From positions 1-40,581 of the forward strand of contig JARGFW010000020.1 of NCBI GenBank assembly GCA_029211085.1: a DNA stretch of 40,581 bases. The letters are read 5' to 3'. Positions 1,587-35,910 of this stretch are shown here, piece after piece. Position numbers and translations under genes: made by a program. Each line of letters starts with the position of its first letter. Within the stretch, counting starts at the first letter, position 1. The notes under the pieces are model-generated. The model was not told the origin of the DNA. It saw nothing but the letters and a program-made list of their open reading frames with translations, and made no database searches. The DNA comes from Deferrisomatales bacterium. GTDB taxonomy: Bacteria; Desulfobacterota; Deferrisomatia; Deferrisomatales; JARGFW01.

Positions 1587-1775
1587 ATGAGCGATCGAAC
1601 CGTCAACTGTCTGCAGTGCGCGTATTTTTTCGTTACCTGGGAAGCGGCCCGCCCCCGCGGCTGCCGAGCCCTGGGCTTCAAGTGCCGCGAGGTGCCTTCC
1701 CAGGCGGTGCGCACCGCCTCCGGGGAGGAGTGCCGGTACTTCCGGCGGCGCGACCGAAACCGAGACCGGGGCTAG
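1587..1775 (+). CDS. Small conserved cysteine protein, 62 residues
   Basis: A short protein with the pattern CLQCAYFFVTW near the start, then CRALGFKC and a final EECRYF, giving five cysteines in about 42 residues. From family memory this pattern (CxxCxxFxxTW, then RGCxAxGFKxxxxPS, then GxxCxxF) is a conserved small protein in Desulfobacterota and related bacteria. It is sometimes labelled in databases as a uracil-DNA glycosylase fragment, a label I would not trust at this length. The cysteine spacing suggests a small metal-binding or zinc-ribbon-like fold. It lies 23 bp upstream of the receiver-PATAN-J-TPR gene and is likely in the same transcript. Its function is unknown. Confidence 0.65.
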   Translation: MSDRTVNCLQCAYFFVTWEAARPRGCRALGFKCREVPSQAVRTASGEECRYFRRRDRNRDRG

Positions 1776-1798: not shown

Positions 1799-3664
1799 AT
1801 GACCAAACACGTGCTGGTTGCGGACTGCGATCCCATCACTCGCCAGGCCCTGGCGGCGTTGCTGCCGAGCCTGGGGGCCGAGGCCCTGTTCGCGGACAAC
1901 GACGAGATGGCGGTGCGCCGTTTCCTCGAAAACGGCCCGCAGCTGGTGTGGATCGACGTGCTGTTGCCACGCCACGGCGGGCTGCCCCTGCTGCGCCGGC
2001 TGCGAACCCTGCGCGACGGCGCGGGGGTGGCGGTGCTGGTGACCGGGTCGGTGGCCCAGGACAAGGCGTTCCGCAAGGAGGCGGTGGCGGAACTGGGGGC
2101 CCTGGCCTACTGCAAGAAGCCCCTCACCCTGGAAACCCTGCGCACCCGCCTGACCCAGGCCCTAGCCGCCGGCGACGCGCCGGCCCCGGTGGCCAACCCG
2201 TTTGCCGCCCCGCTGCCGGAACAGGGAGGCGAGCTGGCCGAGGCCCCGTCTCCACGCCTGCTCCACCGTCTGGCCCAGCGCCGGGTCACCGGTTGTCTCA
2301 CCGTGACCCGGCAGCGCCAGCGCAAGGTGCTGTACCTGCGGGACGGCGCCGTCACCTTCGCCCTCTCCAACCAGCTGCGCGAAACCCTCAGCAGCCACCT
2401 GGTGGCCCGCGGGCGCATCGACGCGGCCACGGTGCAGGCAGGGGTGGAGGAGATGCGTCGCGCGGGCACGCGCCTGGGGGAGTTCCTCATCGCCAACGGG
2501 GTGCTCGCCGCCGACGAGGTGTTCGCCGCGATCCGCGACAACGTGCGCGAGAAGGTGCTGGACCTGTTCCGCTGGCAAGAGGGTCGGTTCCAGGTGACCC
2601 CGTACCGGGAACCCCCCGCGCCCCTTCCCGGGCCCGAGTTCCCCCTGCCCGGGGTGGTGTGGGCCGGGGTCCGCGAGGTGTTGTCCCTGCGGGCCGTCGG
2701 CGAGGAACTGGCCCCCCTGGGCGGGTTGGTGCTCGGGGCGTGCCCCGGTGCCGCCGATCCGCCATCGGACCTGGGCCTGGGCGGCGACGAGCTGCGGCTG
2801 CTGCGCACCCTGCGCCGCGGCCTGGGGGGTACCCTGGAAGAACTCCTGGGGCAGGTGGATGAGGAGCCCGGGCGCCGCCTGCTCTACTACCTGCTGCTGC
2901 AGGGCTACTTCACCCTGGGGGGCGATGCCGGCGCCGCGGGGGCTGGCCAGGACACAGCGGACCCGCGCCTGCGCGATGCCCGGGAGCGACTACGCAGGCT
3001 GCGGCAGGGCAACCACTTCCAGGTCCTCCAGGTGCCCCTGGACGTCGATGACCGGACGGTGCGCGAGGCGTACCGCAGCCGCGCCAAGGCCGTGCATCCC
3101 GACACCCTGGGGCCCGGTGATCCGGCGGAACTCCACCGCTTGTTTGGCGACTCGTTCCAGGTGATCCGCGCCGCCTACGACGGGTTGAAGACCCCCGAGC
3201 TGCGCCAGCAGCACCTGCGCCACTTGCACGGGGCTGCACCGGAAGATCCGCTGGAGGAGGGCAGCGCGGTGCTGCAGGCCGAGGTGCACTACCAGGAGGG
3301 CCAACAACTGCTCAAGCGGCGCGACTGGAACCGGGCCGCCGAGCTGTTGGGCAAGGCCTGGGAACTGAATCCCACCGAGGGGGAGTACGCCCTGGGTCTG
3401 GGGGTGGCCCGAGCCCGCCAGAGCGGCGCCGGCCGGCCAGACCTGGAGCGTGACGCCGAGGGTCTGTTGCGGCAGGCCCACGAGATGCTGCCGGGCTCGG
3501 GAGAGCCAACGTACCACCTGGGTCGTCTGGCCCTGCAGCGCGGCGACCCGGAGACCGCAGCCGGGTTCCTGCGCCAAGCCCTGGGGCGAGATCCCAACCA
3601 TCTGGCGGCCCAACGCGAGCTGCGGGTGCTGCGCATGCGCGGCGCCGGTCGTTCGCGGCGCTGA
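1799..3664 (+). CDS. Response regulator receiver-PATAN (DUF4388)-DnaJ-TPR fusion protein
   Basis: A 621-residue cytoplasmic protein with four modules. Residues 1-120 form a receiver domain, with the likely phospho-acceptor Asp53 in VWIDVLLPRHGG and the conserved Lys-Pro near residue 107 (YCKKPLTL). Residues about 140-295 resemble the DUF4388/PATAN domain found in Desulfobacterota and myxobacterial signalling proteins. Residues about 404-478 form a J domain with the intact HPD tripeptide (His433-Asp435), so it could stimulate an Hsp70 ATPase. Residues about 500-615 are TPR-like helical repeats. The ATG at 1799 follows a G-rich ribosome binding site and starts exactly at the receiver domain; the longer upstream frame overlaps the previous small gene. 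The domain order suggests a phosphorylation-controlled co-chaperone or scaffold. The partner kinase is not in the window. Confidence 0.85.
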   Translation: MTKHVLVADCDPITRQALAALLPSLGAEALFADNDEMAVRRFLENGPQLVWIDVLLPRHGGLPLLRRLRTLRDGAGVAVLVTGSVAQDKAFRKEAVAELGALAYCKKPLTLETLRTRLTQALAAGDAPAPVANPFAAPLPEQGGELAEAPSPRLLHRLAQRRVTGCLTVTRQRQRKVLYLRDGAVTFALSNQLRETLSSHLVARGRIDAATVQAGVEEMRRAGTRLGEFLIANGVLAADEVFAAIRDNVREKVLDLFRWQEGRFQVTPYREPPAPLPGPEFPLPGVVWAGVREVLSLRAVGEELAPLGGLVLGACPGAADPPSDLGLGGDELRLLRTLRRGLGGTLEELLGQVDEEPGRRLLYYLLLQGYFTLGGDAGAAGAGQDTADPRLRDARERLRRLRQGNHFQVLQVPLDVDDRTVREAYRSRAKAVHPDTLGPGDPAELHRLFGDSFQVIRAAYDGLKTPELRQQHLRHLHGAAPEDPLEEGSAVLQAEVHYQEGQQLLKRRDWNRAAELLGKAWELNPTEGEYALGLGVARARQSGAGRPDLERDAEGLLRQAHEMLPGSGEPTYHLGRLALQRGDPETAAGFLRQALGRDPNHLAAQRELRVLRMRGAGRSRR

Positions 3665-5142: not shown

Positions 5143-5298
5143 GTATTCTGGTGTCGCACTGCCCCTGGCTGCCCTGCACTCTGCCGGCGGGTCCCTATGG
5201 TGGAACATAAGGGGCGCAAGGGGGATGGGCAAGGCGCTTCCCGGCCCCGGGCAGCGTCCTTCCACCGGGCACGCATCTCCGTGTGGCTTCCGGGGTGC

Positions 5299-5326
5299 TT
5301 GCGCCCAGAGCCGGTCTCACTATGCT
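5299..5326 (+). promoter_or_regulatory. Candidate sigma-70-type promoter for the GAF/HD-GYP gene
   Basis: TTGCGC (5299-5304) and TATGCT (5321-5326) are separated by 16 bp and lie about 85 bp upstream of the HD-GYP start. The remainder of the 338-bp divergent interval (5073-5410) holds the hairpin described at 5123 and no further gene. The -35 box is only a partial match, so this is a candidate by pattern alone. Confidence 0.35.
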
Positions 5327-5410
5327 GGTTTCCCGTTGGGGTTTCCTGTTCCGAGAGAGCTTCGGTGCCGATTCCAGCGGGGTGCCGAGAACGCGAAGGG
5401 AGAGAGGCAG

Positions 5411-6616
5411 ATGGTAGATCGACGGGTACCGGAGGGGGCCGCGGCGGGTGCGGGCGCCGAGCCTCGGGTCGCCTACGTGGCCGACCCCTTGGCAGCCCTC
5501 GCCGAAAACCAGGACCTGGGCCAGTTTCTGGCGGCGATCCAAGCGGCTGTGGGAAACCACTGCGACTGCATCGATCGCATCTCGGTGGCCCTCTACGACG
5601 CAGACACCGACACCCTCAAGACCTTCCTGGCCAGCAGTGGGGGCGACGCGCCGCTGCAGCACTACGAGGCGGACCTCGCCGCGGCGCCGTCCCTGCGGGA
5701 AACCATCCTCTCCCGGCGCCCGCGGGTCGTCAACGACCTGTCCGTGTTCGCCGACGGCACCCGGGAGCACACCCGGCGCATCCGCGACCAGGGCTACGGG
5801 GCGAGTTGCACCTTCCCCCTCTTCCTGGGGGAACGGGTTCTGGGGTGCGCGTTCTTCGACAGCTACCGGAAGGGTTGCTTCGGGGAACACGTCGTCCGGG
5901 TGCTGAGCCTCTTCTCCCACCTGATCGCCCGGGTGGTGGGCAGCGAGTGGATCGCCGCCCGCACCTTGCGGGCGGCCCTGAAGACCGCCAACGAAATGGT
6001 CCACCACAAGGACCCGGAGACCGGCAACCACCTGGAGCGGATGAGCCGGTTCTCGCGGCTCATCGCCCAGGACCTGTCGCGATCGGGGGCACATGCGTTG
6101 GATGACGAGTTCGTCGAGTCCCTGTTCCTGTTCTCCCCCCTCCACGACGTTGGCAAGATCGGTATTCCGGACGCGGTCCTGCTCAAACCGGCGAAGCTCG
6201 AGGGGCCGGAGTGGGAGGTAATGAAGAGCCATGCGCACCTGGGAAGGGTGATGGTGGACGCCATCATCGGCAACTTCGGCCTGGAGTCCACCGGATCGGT
6301 CGACCTGCTGCGCCACATCGCCGAACACCACCACGAGACGGTGGACGGAGCCGGCTATCCCCACGGCCTCGTCGGGGAGGAGATCCCGCTCGCGGCGCGG
6401 GTGGTGGCCGTGGCCGACGTGTTCGACGCCCTCACCAGCCGGCGTCCCTACAAAGAGCCCTGGACCAATGACGACGCCTTCCGACAGCTGCGACGCCTGG
6501 CGCGGGACAAGCTGGACGCCACCTGCGTGGAGGCCCTGATCCACAACCGACCGGCCGTGGAGGCCATCCAGCGGCAGTTCCGGGAGGAAGAGGAAGCCGT
6601 CGCCGCAGGGACCTGA
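5411..6616 (+). CDS. GAF domain/HD-GYP phosphodiesterase
   Basis: A 401-residue protein. An N-terminal GAF-like sensor (residues about 30-185) is followed by an HD-GYP domain. The HD pair is in HDVGKIGIPD, and the signature appears as HHHETVDGAGYP followed by IPLAARVVAVADVFDALTS. HD-GYP proteins with this motif set hydrolyse cyclic di-GMP (or cGAMP) using a di- or tri-metal centre. All canonical ligands seem present, so enzymatic activity is likely. The ATG at 5411 follows GGGAGAGAG; the 62 codons upstream in the same frame are Pro/Arg-rich and are not counted. The next gene encodes a small cytochrome behind a structured leader, so a c-di-GMP link to electron transfer is possible but unproven. 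Confidence 0.85.
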   Translation: MVDRRVPEGAAAGAGAEPRVAYVADPLAALAENQDLGQFLAAIQAAVGNHCDCIDRISVALYDADTDTLKTFLASSGGDAPLQHYEADLAAAPSLRETILSRRPRVVNDLSVFADGTREHTRRIRDQGYGASCTFPLFLGERVLGCAFFDSYRKGCFGEHVVRVLSLFSHLIARVVGSEWIAARTLRAALKTANEMVHHKDPETGNHLERMSRFSRLIAQDLSRSGAHALDDEFVESLFLFSPLHDVGKIGIPDAVLLKPAKLEGPEWEVMKSHAHLGRVMVDAIIGNFGLESTGSVDLLRHIAEHHHETVDGAGYPHGLVGEEIPLAARVVAVADVFDALTSRRPYKEPWTNDDAFRQLRRLARDKLDATCVEALIHNRPAVEAIQRQFREEEEAVAAGT

Positions 6617-31015: not shown

Positions 31016-31357
31016 GCTTTGCTGGCTGGGGTCAAAAAGGCCCCGCCGCGTCAGTATAAGCCATTGTAATTATTTGATTTTTTGTTTTCCTGGTTGGGTC
31101 CCTCCGGACGCTGCACTGCGACGGTGCGGGAGGCTGCCCGGGGTTCGGGATACGGCGAGGAGTTTTCATCTGCGTTCCACACCTGCTGTGGCGCGCCCAC
31201 GACTCCTGCTCGCTCCGTACGCGCCAAAACCTACACTGCCGGCTGTCCCCGTGGGCGTTGCCGCGCTCCGGCCGGCGCCCGTTTCAGGACTGAGGCTGCG
31301 CGCTGGTGCGCGCGTGAACCCCTACTGGCTATTGAGCCAACCGGAGGGAGGGTAAGA
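31016..31357 (+). other. Long untranslated leader of fhs
   Basis: About 340 nt separate the predicted transcription start from the fhs ATG. The first 75 nt include an AT-rich stretch (31061-31090), unusual in this genome. Later parts form stems: GCGCGC-TGGT-GCGCGC near 31300, and TGGCT-ATTG-AGCCA around 31326-31339, which ends just before the ribosome binding site GGAGGGAGGG. The length and stems would allow riboswitch or attenuation control. I compared it with the THF and cobalamin riboswitch cores and found neither. Confidence 0.4.
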
Positions 31358-33091
31358 ATGCCGAAATTGCCGCCGAGAGATGTACCGTCCGACCTGGAGA
31401 TCGCCCAGGCCCACAAGATGCAGCACATCAAGGAGATCGCCGCGAAGGGCGGCCTGCTGGAGTCCGAGCTCGAGTACTACGGAAACTATAAGGCGAAGGT
31501 CAACTTCAACGCCGTGCTGACGCGCTTGAAGGACAAGCCCAACGGCAAGCTGATCGACGTCACTGCTTGCACCCCCACTCCCCTGGGCGAGGGCAAGACG
31601 GTTACCTCCATCGGCCTCTACGAGGGGCTGAACCGCATCGGCAAGAACGCCATGCTCGCCCTGCGCGAGCCCAGCCTGGGCCCGGTTTTCGGCATCAAGG
31701 GCGGCGCCGCCGGCGGCGGCTACTCCCAGATCGTGCCGATGGAAGACCTGAACCTGCACTTCACCGGCGACATCCACGCCGTCTCCATCACCCACAACCT
31801 TTGCTCCGCGGCGCTCGACACCAGCCTGATGCACGGCAACCCGCTGAACATCGACCCCCTAACCATCCAGTGGAACCGCGTTGTGGACCTCAACGACCGC
31901 TGCCTGCGCGAGATCGTGGTGGGCCTGGGCGGCAAGCTGAACGGCGTGCCGCGCCAGACCGGCTTCGACATCGCGGTGGCCTCCGAGGTGATGGCGATCC
32001 TGGCCCTGGCCACGGACCTGGCGGACCTGCGTGCGCGCATGGGCCGCATCCTGCTGGCCTACACCTACGACGGCAAACCGGTGACCACCGAAGATCTTCA
32101 GGTGGCCGGGGCGATGACCGTGCTGATGAAGGACGCGCTGAAGCCCACCCTGATCCAGTCCCTGGAGGGCAACCCGGCCCTGATCCACGCCGGCCCGTTC
32201 GCCAACATCGCCCACGGCAACAACTCCATCATCGCCGACAAGGTGGCCATGAAGCTCGGCGACTACACCGTGACCGAGTCCGGTTTCGCCGCGGACATGG
32301 GCGCCGAGAAGTTCATGAACATCACCTGCCGCTACGGCGGGTTCAGCCCCGACTGCGTGGTGGTCACCTGCACCGTGCGCGCGCTGAAGATGCACGGCAT
32401 GCCTTGGGCTGAGATCTCCAAGTACACCCCCAAGGAACTGGCCAAGTTCCTGATGGACCCGCACCCCAAGTACCTGGCCAAGGGCATCGAGAACCTGGAG
32501 GCCCACATCGAAAACATGAAGAAGTTCGGCGTGCCGGTGGTGAACACCATCAACCGCTTCGCCTTCGACCGCGACGAAGAGGTCAACACGATCAAGAAGC
32601 GCGCCGAGGCTTGCGGCGCCAGCGCTTCGGTGCCGATCGAAGTGTGGATGCACGGAGGCGCTGGCGCTGAAGAGGCTGCCCAGGCCGTGGTGGACGCCTG
32701 TGAGGAACCCAAGAACTTCAAGTTCCTGTATCCGGACGAGGCCTCCATCAAGGAGAAGATCGAAGCCATCGCGATCAACATCTACGGTGCTGACGGGGTT
32801 GACTACATGCCCGAGGCCGAGGCCAAGATCGCCCAGTTCACCAAGCTCGGCTACGACAAACTGCCGATCTGCATGGCCAAGACGCACCTCAGCCTGAGCC
32901 ACGATCTGACCCTGAAGGGTCGCCCGAAGGGCTTCCGGGTGCCGATCCGCGACATCCGCGCCAGCCTGGGTGCCGGCTTCCTCTACCCCCTGTTGGGCAT
33001 CATGCGCACCATGCCCGGCCTGTCTGCCGATCCGGCCTACCGGTATGTCGATATCGATACCGACACCGGCCGCATCAAGGGGCTTTTCTAG
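31358..33091 (+). CDS. fhs: Formate--tetrahydrofolate ligase
   Basis: A 577-residue cytoplasmic enzyme that joins formate to tetrahydrofolate with ATP, the activation step of the methyl branch of the Wood-Ljungdahl pathway. The nucleotide-binding stretch is TPTPLGEGKTVTSIGLYEGL near residue 75. Further family stretches are LREPSLGPVFGIKGGAAGGGYSQ, NLHFTGDIHAV, GPFANIAHGNNSIIADK and the C-terminal GRIKGLF. It is slightly longer than the usual 555-560 residues, and the conserved VATVRALK motif reads VVTCTVRALKMHGM, so it belongs to a divergent branch. The ATG at 31358 has the very strong site GGAGGGAGGG. It is the first gene of the carbon-fixation cluster; a terminator follows its stop. Confidence 0.93.
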   Translation: MPKLPPRDVPSDLEIAQAHKMQHIKEIAAKGGLLESELEYYGNYKAKVNFNAVLTRLKDKPNGKLIDVTACTPTPLGEGKTVTSIGLYEGLNRIGKNAMLALREPSLGPVFGIKGGAAGGGYSQIVPMEDLNLHFTGDIHAVSITHNLCSAALDTSLMHGNPLNIDPLTIQWNRVVDLNDRCLREIVVGLGGKLNGVPRQTGFDIAVASEVMAILALATDLADLRARMGRILLAYTYDGKPVTTEDLQVAGAMTVLMKDALKPTLIQSLEGNPALIHAGPFANIAHGNNSIIADKVAMKLGDYTVTESGFAADMGAEKFMNITCRYGGFSPDCVVVTCTVRALKMHGMPWAEISKYTPKELAKFLMDPHPKYLAKGIENLEAHIENMKKFGVPVVNTINRFAFDRDEEVNTIKKRAEACGASASVPIEVWMHGGAGAEEAAQAVVDACEEPKNFKFLYPDEASIKEKIEAIAINIYGADGVDYMPEAEAKIAQFTKLGYDKLPICMAKTHLSLSHDLTLKGRPKGFRVPIRDIRASLGAGFLYPLLGIMRTMPGLSADPAYRYVDIDTDTGRIKGLF

Positions 33092-33116
33092 CGTTGATCC
33101 ACTTCCGTTGAAGTTT

Positions 33117-33154
33117 GGCGAGGAGGGCTGCGGCCCTCCTCGCCTCCCTTTTTT
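33117..33154 (+). terminator. Intrinsic terminator or attenuator between fhs and the RACo gene
   Basis: GGCGAGGAGGGC (33117-33128) and GCCCTCCTCGCC (33133-33144) form a perfect 12-bp stem with a TGCG loop. The bases TCCC and then T6 follow (33149-33154). It starts 25 bp after the fhs stop. The start codon of the next gene is only 14 nt past the T run, so the hairpin is also the leader of the downstream genes. Confidence 0.88.
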
Positions 33155-33168
33155 GCTCGGGAGTTCCC

Positions 33169-35127
33169 TTGCCTGAGAAGCGCTACACCGTTCGTTTCGA
33201 ACCCGATGACGTGTCCATCGACGTCTATCGCGAGGCAGAGAACCTACTCCGCGTCGCGATGGTCGCCGGCGTGCACGTCAACGCCTCCTGTGGCGGGGCC
33301 GGAACCTGTGGTAAGTGCAAGGTAAAGATCCTGGAGGGAGAGTTTCGTACCAAACCGACGGCGAAGCTGTCCGATGCCGAGACGAAACAGGGGTACTGCC
33401 TCGCCTGCCAGACCGAGATTCTCGGCGACCTGATCGTCGAGGTGCCGGTCGAGTCCCGCTACGAGAAGGGCGTGCTGGCGCGCCAGTTGAACCGGGTGGC
33501 GCCGGAGCATGTGCTGGCCCCCGCGCGCCTCGGCGCGGAGTTCGCGGCGCTGCGGTCGGACCCGGCCGTCGTCAAGTACTTTGCCGCGTTGACGCCGCCG
33601 TCCGAGGACAACAACGGCTCTGACATGGGGCGCCTGGGGCAGTTTCTGAAACAGGAGTACGGCGTGGAGCAGGTGACCACCGATTTCGCCGTCATGCGTG
33701 AACTGTCACAGGTGCTGCGCGCGGGAACGTGGCAGGTGACCGCGACGGTGGTGGACGACATCCGTGCCGGAAGGCGCATGACCCACGTGGGGCCCGGCGA
33801 CACCCGGGGCCGCACCTACTGCCTGGCCATCGACATCGGCACCACCACCATCCACGGCTCGCTCCTGGACGTGAACAGCGGGGAAGAAGTGGCCCACGCT
33901 GGCGACTACAACTCCCAAATCTCCATGGGGGAGGACGTCATCAGCCGCATCGTCCATTCCCAGAAGGCGGGTGGACTGGAGGCGCTCCAGAAGCGCGTGG
34001 TCAAGACCATGAACGGGGTGATTGCCGAGCTGCTGGACAAGGCCGAGGTGGCCCCCGGGGAGGTCAGCCACGCCGTGTTCGCGGGCAACACCACCATGAC
34101 CCAGCTGTTCCTGGGACTGAACCCCAAGTACATCCGCGAGGCGCCCTACGTCCCTACGGCGAACTTCTTCCCGCCATTCAAGCTGGCCGACCTCGGCCTC
34201 GCGGTACCCCCCCAGGTGACCGGCTTCGTTGCGCCGTGCGTCGCGTCCTACGTGGGGGGGGACATCACCGCCGGGGTGTTGGCCACGGGCATCCATCTCA
34301 GCCCGTTGCTCACCCTGTTCATGGATGTGGGCACCAACGGCGAGATCGTCATCGGCAACCAGGACTGGATGGTCTCGGCGTCTGCCTCTGCCGGACCGGC
34401 GTTCGAGGGCGGGGGCGTGAAGTTCGGCATGCGCGCCACTTACGGCGCCATCGAGCAGATCCGCGTGAACCCCGAGAACTTCGAACCGATGATCCTCACC
34501 ATCGGCCAGACGGCTCCCAAGGGCATCTGTGGTTCGGGCATGATCGATGTGCTGGCCGAGTTCGCGCTGGCCGGCGTCATCTCCCAAAACGGCAAGATCA
34601 ACCAGGATCTGGCGGCGGTGACCAACCGGGTGCGGGCGGGCGAGACGGGCTGGGAGTACGTGCTGTGCTGGAAGGACCAGACCCAGCTGGACCAGGATCT
34701 GGTGATCTGCGAGCCGGACATCGACAACCTGATCCGTACCAAGGGTTCGATCTACGCGGCCTGCTCGGTGCTGCTCAAGAGCGTGGGGCTGCAGTTCACC
34801 GACCTAGAGCGCATCATCCTCGCCGGCGGGTTCGGCCACTACATCGACGTGGAGAAGGCCATGGCCATCGGCCTGCTCCCGGAGGTCGCGCCGGAGATCG
34901 TAACCTACGGCGGTAATACCAGCCTCACCGGGTCCAAGCTGGCGGCCCTGTTCCGGGACAAGATGGAAGAGATGGAGGCGGTGGCCACCATGATCACCAA
35001 CATCGAGCTGAGTGCCTCCCATATCTTCATGGACGAGTACGTTGCCGCCCTGTTCCTGCCACACACCCGGATGGAAGAGTTCCCCCTCCAGCGGGAGCGC
35101 TTGAAGGCCATGGGCGCGATCCACTAG
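33169..35127 (+). CDS. ASKHA-type ferredoxin, reductive activator of the corrinoid iron-sulfur protein (RACo)
   Basis: A 652-residue protein. The N-terminal [2Fe-2S] ferredoxin domain has Cys41, Cys47, Cys50 and Cys80 (CGGAGTCGKC and YCLACQ). A linker and middle region follow, then a C-terminal ASKHA ATPase region (DUF4445) with AIDIGTTTIHGSLLD, the phosphate loops AGNTTMTQLFLGL and MDVGTNGEIVIGN, CGSGMIDVLAEF and ILAGGFGHYIDVEKA. RACo proteins use ATP to return the inactive Co(II) corrinoid of AcsCD to Co(I). The reading frame is open upstream, but the TTG at 33169, with GGGAG before it, is where family homology starts; the TTG and the upstream terminator predict low expression, as suits a repair enzyme. 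cooC follows at 18 bp. Confidence 0.9.
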   Translation: MPEKRYTVRFEPDDVSIDVYREAENLLRVAMVAGVHVNASCGGAGTCGKCKVKILEGEFRTKPTAKLSDAETKQGYCLACQTEILGDLIVEVPVESRYEKGVLARQLNRVAPEHVLAPARLGAEFAALRSDPAVVKYFAALTPPSEDNNGSDMGRLGQFLKQEYGVEQVTTDFAVMRELSQVLRAGTWQVTATVVDDIRAGRRMTHVGPGDTRGRTYCLAIDIGTTTIHGSLLDVNSGEEVAHAGDYNSQISMGEDVISRIVHSQKAGGLEALQKRVVKTMNGVIAELLDKAEVAPGEVSHAVFAGNTTMTQLFLGLNPKYIREAPYVPTANFFPPFKLADLGLAVPPQVTGFVAPCVASYVGGDITAGVLATGIHLSPLLTLFMDVGTNGEIVIGNQDWMVSASASAGPAFEGGGVKFGMRATYGAIEQIRVNPENFEPMILTIGQTAPKGICGSGMIDVLAEFALAGVISQNGKINQDLAAVTNRVRAGETGWEYVLCWKDQTQLDQDLVICEPDIDNLIRTKGSIYAACSVLLKSVGLQFTDLERIILAGGFGHYIDVEKAMAIGLLPEVAPEIVTYGGNTSLTGSKLAALFRDKMEEMEAVATMITNIELSASHIFMDEYVAALFLPHTRMEEFPLQRERLKAMGAIH

Positions 35128-35145
35128 GAAGGGACGAGAGAGAAC

Positions 35146-35910
35146 ATGGGTGTGCATATCGCGGTAGCGGGCAAGGGCGGCACCGGCAAGACCACGGTGG
35201 CAGGGCTGATGGTGCGGTACCTGGTGGGGTTGGGCCGGGGTCGCGTGCTGGCGGTGGACGCCGACGCCAACATGAACCTCAACGAGGTGCTCGGTCTGGA
35301 CGTGCACCAAACCATCGGTGAGATTCGCGAGGGTATGGGCACCAGCGTGCCGGCCGGCATGACCAAGGATGCTTTCATCAACTACAAGACCCAGGAGTGC
35401 CTGATCGAGTCGGACGGGTACGACCTGATCGTGATGGGGCGGCCCGAGGGGCCCGGGTGCTACTGCTACGCCAACACCCTGTGCAAGAAGTACGTGGACG
35501 AGATCGCCGACAACTACGCCTTCGTGGTGGTGGACAACGAGGCCGGCATGGAACACCTGTCGCGCCGCACCACCCACAACATGGATCTCATGTTCACGGT
35601 CACCGACTCCTCGACGCGCGGGATCCGGGCCGCCAAGCGCATCGAGCAGCTGGTCGCGGAGATCAAGCTCGACATCGGTACCACGGCCCTCATCGTCAAT
35701 CGGCTCGACGGAGAACTGGAGCCGCCAACCAAGCAGGAGATCGACCGGCTGGGACTGACCCTGGCGGGTGTCGTTCCCAGCGACCCCAATGTGTACACCT
35801 ACGACCTGGAGGGGAAGCCGACGTTTCAGCTTCCAGAAGACTCGCCCGCCTCCGTGGCCGTGGGTTCGATCTTGAAGCGTTACCTGTCGAGGGAGGATCT
35901 GGCCGGTTAA
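35146..35910 (+). CDS. cooC: CooC-type nickel-insertion ATPase for CO dehydrogenase
   Basis: A 254-residue MinD/SIMIBI-class ATPase with the deviant Walker A AGKGGTGKTT (residues 8-17), switch region VVDNEAGMEHLSRR and the CxC metal-binding pair Cys105/Cys107 in GPGCYCYANTLC. CooC dimers bind nickel through such a CxC and load it into the C-cluster of CO dehydrogenase. AcsF, the homologue that matures acetyl-CoA synthase, is similar, and sequence alone hardly separates the two. The position upstream of the CO dehydrogenase gene fits either role. The ATG at 35146 is preceded by GGGACGAGAGAG. It lies 18 bp after the RACo gene and 60 bp before acsD, all on one strand. Confidence 0.9.
   Translation: MGVHIAVAGKGGTGKTTVAGLMVRYLVGLGRGRVLAVDADANMNLNEVLGLDVHQTIGEIREGMGTSVPAGMTKDAFINYKTQECLIESDGYDLIVMGRPEGPGCYCYANTLCKKYVDEIADNYAFVVVDNEAGMEHLSRRTTHNMDLMFTVTDSSTRGIRAAKRIEQLVAEIKLDIGTTALIVNRLDGELEPPTKQEIDRLGLTLAGVVPSDPNVYTYDLEGKPTFQLPEDSPASVAVGSILKRYLSREDLAG

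Follow-up and report, generated by a model that had tools for sequence, protein, structure and literature searches.

Two kinds of regulator of the type IV pilus (T4P) motor in cyanobacteria are the closest described systems to the protein analysed here. PATAN response regulators such as PixG and PixE have, like our protein, a response regulator and a PATAN domain in one chain (PMC12288463, PMC9239167), and PATAN regulators are reported to bind PilB1 (PMC12288463); in the accessible parts of these papers no J-domain or TPR is mentioned for PixG or PixE, unlike our protein, and binding to a PilB-type pilus motor, reported for them, is only predicted for ours. The second kind is a J-domain protein with TPR, DnaJ3, which works with DnaK1 and GrpE in Nostoc and Synechocystis, and the accessible text describes binding of DnaK1, with DnaJ3 and GrpE, to PilB (PMC12288463, PMC9239167). 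That text mentions no REC or PATAN domain in the DnaJ3 system, again unlike our protein, and the likeness between DnaJ3 and our J-TPR half is one of module content. M. xanthus strains deleted for sglK, a homologue of DnaK, are impaired in social motility (PMC8265645, accessible part), and a DnaJ/PilZ gene, mxan_6013, is named in a suppressor table in the portion available of PMC6211767. SopA was set aside, its two conserved regions being described in the available text as without similarity to characterised proteins (PMC11580455), and the text available of a Geobacter paper (PMC3495685) contained nothing relevant. No paper joining these modules was found in the literature searched, with domain databases and subscription journals outside its scope; the parts are known, and the REC-PATAN-J-TPR chain is a new variant relative to that literature. 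In E. coli, the J-domain protein DjlA is linked to two-component signalling through the Rcs phosphorelay; it is a membrane J-protein acting on the phosphorelay, and the modules are not in one chain, unlike those of our protein. In one cyanobacterial genome (Limnothrix), the best match was a protein with a J-domain and pentapeptide-like repeats, its type being judged from sequence.

The window, that is, the whole 40,581-nucleotide stretch of Deferrisomatales DNA analysed, encodes a protein in which receiver, PATAN, J-domain and TPR are joined in a single chain (Table 1). The modules follow one another as Response_reg, DUF4388 (which we take to be another name for PATAN), DnaJ and TPR, with every match above its Pfam cut-off, including TPR_19 (36.4 bits, cut-off 25) and TPR_2 (31.7 bits, cut-off 27) in the repeat region, so that the module order and the intact HPD given in the preliminary description were both confirmed. 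The GC content by codon position of the open frame is 0.81/0.49/0.88. The AlphaFold model of the 621-residue protein has a mean pLDDT of 88.4 and a pTM of 0.49, indicating that individual domains are reliable but that their mutual placement is not. In the model the J-domain has the four-helix J fold (406-410, 418-432, 443-463 and 466-476), with the HPD in the loop between helices II and III, and the linker received no confident fold assignment, its matches reaching Z of about 5 at most. The four-module architecture is not a chance assembly, because it is repeated in a 45% identical paralogue (C133:3868-5769) of the same assembly and its profile is matched over most or all of its length in ten of the 11 other genomes of the order.

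Table 1. Features of the REC-PATAN-J-TPR gene and of the short frame upstream of it (window coordinates)
Feature	Position	Strand	Residues and basis
Cys-rich short ORF	1587..1775	+	ends 23 bases upstream of the ATG
REC-PATAN-linker-J-TPR protein	1799..3664	+	ATG start, 621 aa; translation, Pfam, AlphaFold model
Receiver domain, incomplete pocket	1811..2152	+	5-118; Pfam Response_reg 43.1 bits (cut-off 30.2)
Cys10, second acidic residue lost	1826..1828	+	aligned to Asp10 of RR468
Asp53, phospho-acceptor position, present	1955..1957	+	alignment to RR468
Gly83, switch residue lost	2045..2047	+	aligned to Thr83 of RR468
DUF4388/PATAN domain	2228..2620	+	144-274; Pfam 63.8 bits (cut-off 25)
PATAN helical insert	2378..2560	+	~194-254; fold resembles MshE, PilF-GSPIIB and PilB N-domains (weak scores)
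Linker, mostly helical	2639..2923	+	281-375; AlphaFold models
J-domain	3011..3211	+	405-471; Pfam DnaJ 37.0 bits (cut-off 27.8)
HPD tripeptide	3095..3103	+	433-435; translation and alignment
TPR repeats	3278..3616	+	494-606; Pfam and model helices

The distribution of the architecture was analysed with two profiles. A profile of the complete protein (A1, two rows) matched over most or all of its length in the ten same-order genomes mentioned above and in one genome of another family (G032); the sole exception within the order (G008) is 81% complete, and the copies of G001 and G011 are cut by contig ends. A core profile of PATAN-J-TPR without the receiver (A4, E<=1e-25) matched 51 of the 395 genomes of the phylum, in 42 of which the match covered the J-TPR half, the other nine matching the PATAN-linker half only. 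From these loci 57 open frames were extracted and six duplicates dropped, which left 51 proteins from 38 of the 42 genomes (G188, G211, G292 and G366 were left out of the extraction). A receiver profile built from close relatives detected this domain in 26 of the 51 proteins, from 21 genomes, and none in the other 25, indicating that the J-domain is not tied to the receiver. The combination, which had been thought rare, is thus not very rare in its own phylum. In wider scans of genome contigs, no full-length relative was found among the matches listed, the second of these scans matching the receiver or the J-domain only, and a viral scan and a plasmid search gave no relative.

Within this family the HPD is kept in 38 of the 51 core proteins and in 18 of the 26 that bear a receiver, and the acceptor Asp in all 25 receivers whose region is present; neither is lost in most orthologues. 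The 13 changed tripeptides comprise five f3 copies, three HPP, KPP or RPP, two HPE and three GPE, and parsimony on a quick tree, computed without the J columns and with many open forks, requires at least four changes for the HPD and at least four for the receiver. The combination recurs in relatives, but nearly half of the family has no detected receiver. The HPD has changed repeatedly, so that DnaK recruitment seems dispensable in some lineages. Such a pattern could arise if the J-domain had a mainly structural or docking role in a protein that served as a scaffold, with DnaK not a working partner, because the other modules stay when the HPD is changed and, in family f3, five of six copies have no HPD while the four of those with the receiver region keep Asp53. 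We consider this unlikely, since the HPD is the majority state across deep branches and is present even in the fast-evolving window copy, a pattern difficult to account for unless the contact with DnaK is under selection. Two gene arrangements were also observed: in family f15 two core genes adjoin each other (L184 and L185), one with HPD and the next with RPP or KPP; and at L205:6266-10209 the gene for a core protein in which no receiver was detected has a 4-base overlap with another gene, whose product matches receiver and DUF4388, possibly a two-gene version of the REC-PATAN-J-TPR system.

The strongest positional clue came from glnE, which precedes the gene on its own strand at 13 of the 34 loci examined, namely five of the same order (L059-L063, families f2 and f4) and eight of families f85, f62 and f100 (L193-L200); the flanks of several of the other 21 loci are short. 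The distance between the genes is -4, -34, 801 and 145 nt in four of the same-order loci and 24, 24, 91, -4, 3, -1, 10 and 62 nt in the other eight, whereas the value of -2890 for L059 is artefactual, its open frame being over-long, and would become an overlap of about 4 nt with the alignment's start; in eight of the 13 the genes overlap or lie within 24 bases. The proteins encoded at these loci have the same four modules as the window copy in the same order and, in all 13, the acidic pair, the Asp, the Ser/Thr, the Lys and the HPD, in contrast to the window copy, which has neither a complete receiver pocket nor close glnE linkage. Among receiver-bearing copies unlinked to glnE, the HPD is kept in five of 13.

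These data raise the possibility that the ancestral role was in nitrogen control, the protein acting with GlnE on glutamine synthetase adenylylation as a chaperone or regulator of this large enzyme. In this regard, no GlnE match above the cut-off was found in G000, which carries two copies of the protein, in the five f3 genomes searched or in G008, and f3 is the family in which the HPD is mostly absent. The gene nevertheless persists without glnE in G000 and in f3; in other families it adjoins radA- and rsmB-like genes or an aminotransferase class IV gene, and the linkage may be no more than inherited gene order, so we judge such a role quite unlikely. G000 is 96.9% complete and gave no GlnE match, though five f2 and f4 genomes of the same order have glnE beside their copy.

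The preliminary description had paired the HPD with an intact phospho-acceptor Asp and predicted phosphorylation-dependent recruitment of Hsp70. The receiver fold is clear in the model (VIA Z 20.7, rmsd 1.3 Å over 121 residues to 5ep0), and the receiver entries among the VIA matches listed (50) all have Z above 19. Asp9 and Asp53 match RR468 (3dge_C) in an ungapped alignment, and the conserved Lys (Lys107) is also present. In receivers, the second acidic residue is metal-binding and the Thr/Ser position is the switch residue; in the window copy they are replaced by Cys10 and Gly83, which makes its pocket incomplete, so that, although the acceptor Asp was rightly recognised, the complete phosphorylation site is not preserved. 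In the family, the acidic pair at the end of strand 1 is kept in 19 of 25 receivers, the switch Ser/Thr in 24 of 26 and the conserved Lys in all 26, and the C133 paralogue retains both residues that the window copy has lost, its pocket being complete. Furthermore, the receiver of the window copy scores 33.6 bits against RR468 by phmmer versus 49.8 for that of the paralogue. Its residues make the window copy look less like a clear-cut phosphorylation switch than like a divergent relative of a better-preserved family. That phosphorylation of Asp53 switches J-domain recruitment of DnaK in the window copy itself would be consistent with the presence of Asp9, Asp53, Lys107 and HPD in it, with the frequent retention of HPD beside receivers and with the complete pockets of the glnE-linked copies; given the two substitutions, the weaker similarity to RR468 and the number of core proteins in which no receiver was detected, this is an unlikely explanation. 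The better candidates for phosphorylation-dependent recruitment of Hsp70 would be the C133 paralogue and the copies linked to glnE, the window copy being less plausible in such a role.

The history of the window copy appears to differ from that of its paralogue. In the assembly, of 5.78 Mb in 470 contigs, DnaJ domains occur at eight places and DUF4388 at five. The C133 copy shares neighbours with the copies of G006, G004, G001, G003 and G010 and with one of the two G005 copies, and the window copy shares none in the components listed, except frames antisense to the gene itself. In addition, it has the longest end branch (0.93) of its seven-row group in the quick tree and is less like L059-L063 than the C133 copy is in 25 of 25 module comparisons. 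Altogether, the window copy reads as a relocated, faster-evolving duplicate. The same features, together with the loss of two receiver residues, could be taken as signs of a duplicate in decay that no longer has any part in signalling, but we find this very unlikely because the frame is open over 621 codons with coding base composition and keeps the HPD and all modules. The downstream gene (5225-6616), with GAF and HD domains, was rejected as a conserved partner, as only three of 38 other relatives match at E<=1e-40, over the HD half. Contamination, 8.46% for the assembly, is likewise not favoured as the source of the window, because the contig's formate-THF ligase shares 80-90% identity with those of ten same-order genomes, which places the contig in this lineage (identity is 46-58% with matching genomes from other families); the contig might still derive from another species of that order.

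A link to the pilus motor was suggested by the helical insert of the PATAN domain. The PATAN-linker piece modelled alone has a pLDDT of 93.6, and its insert superposes on the N-domain of MshE (5htl_B) with 0.8 Å over 52 columns (Foldseek probability 1.00, E 0.95), whereas the nine rows with the lowest Foldseek E-values belong to unrelated proteins with probabilities of 0.07 or less. N-domains of MshE and PilF fill the first six VIA rows (Z 5.6-6.4, with 5htl_B at 6.4), PilB N-domains reach Z 4.5 and fumarase helices Z of about 4, all these values being below the level called safe for the fold-comparison tool. The MshE motif family NF053729 of NCBIfam also matches residues 200-244 with 22.9 bits, below its cut-off of 38, and even such a weak match makes chance less likely as the explanation of an MshE-like fold. 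Solved MshE and PilF N-domain structures bind c-di-GMP. Binding of this nucleotide by the PATAN insert is not claimed here, as the resemblance in sequence and fold is weak.

The gene also co-occurs with pilus genes. PilM_2, which matches the own assembly with 286.9 bits, is found at E<=1e-15 in 41 of the 42 genomes whose core match covers J-TPR versus 275 of the 353 others (Fisher p 9e-4, with counts transcribed by hand and kinship among genomes ignored); over all core-matching genomes the figures are 50 of 51 versus 266 of 344 (p 1.2e-4), but the count on 42 genomes is preferred because the remaining nine match the PATAN-linker half only. PilM-bearing genomes are the rule in this sample of the phylum (316 of 395 at the same threshold), which makes the co-occurrence weak evidence. 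The core-bearing genome G096, 89% complete, has a PilM match of only 1.6e-4. The neighbouring genes scanned with Pfam matched no pilus-machine family, and PilZ-domain genes adjoin two of the copies (L195 and L067). These points, and a gene linkage that is strongest for glnE, speak against a pilus target.

The HPD of the J-domain as a contact for DnaK, the cyanobacterial links to PilB, the fold of the PATAN insert and the co-occurrence with PilM_2 make a pilus-motor adaptor the most likely reading, which we favour tentatively: a co-chaperone adaptor, with a PATAN response regulator as its base, that would recruit DnaK to a target, probably the type IV pilus motor. The PATAN domain, with its PilB-N/MshE-like insert, and the TPR would choose the target, most likely a cytoplasmic PilB-type ATPase, and the J-domain, its HPD being intact, would call the housekeeping DnaK to remodel or reset it. 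The assembly contains one full-length DnaK match (891.7 bits), the three further matches to the HSP70 profile all being partial and weak. The recruitment of DnaK would be gated by phosphorylation of the Asp in those relatives whose receiver is complete; in the window copy, as its receiver pocket is incomplete, such gating has probably become weaker or given way to a fixed state. All the binding steps, as well as the stimulation of DnaK, the pilus target and any gating, are predicted.

The same elements suggest a more specific and, in our view, doubtful proposal, according to which the REC-PATAN-J-TPR protein would be a one-chain merger of two pilus-motor regulators that are separate in cyanobacteria, the PATAN response regulator and the TPR-containing DnaJ that works with DnaK, so that a two-component signal would steer Hsp70 onto the T4P extension motor and the PATAN insert would dock through its resemblance to the motor's own N-terminal domain. 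If this were true, two-component signalling would have a direct path to the action of a chaperone on a defined machine, and one molecule would explain why PATAN regulators and DnaK systems both appear in pilus control. The family itself, with receivers absent or degraded and at least four changes of the HPD, offers natural variants for testing the need for each module.

Two minor observations concern the surroundings of the gene. The short Cys-rich frame upstream, which has no Pfam match, is possibly co-transcribed with it, and related frames were found in 17 of 59 genomes, its own included. Further along the window, at 31082-35910, genes for the formate-THF ligase, a RACo-type protein and a CbiA/AAA protein stand in a row, an arrangement suggestive of Wood-Ljungdahl metabolism.
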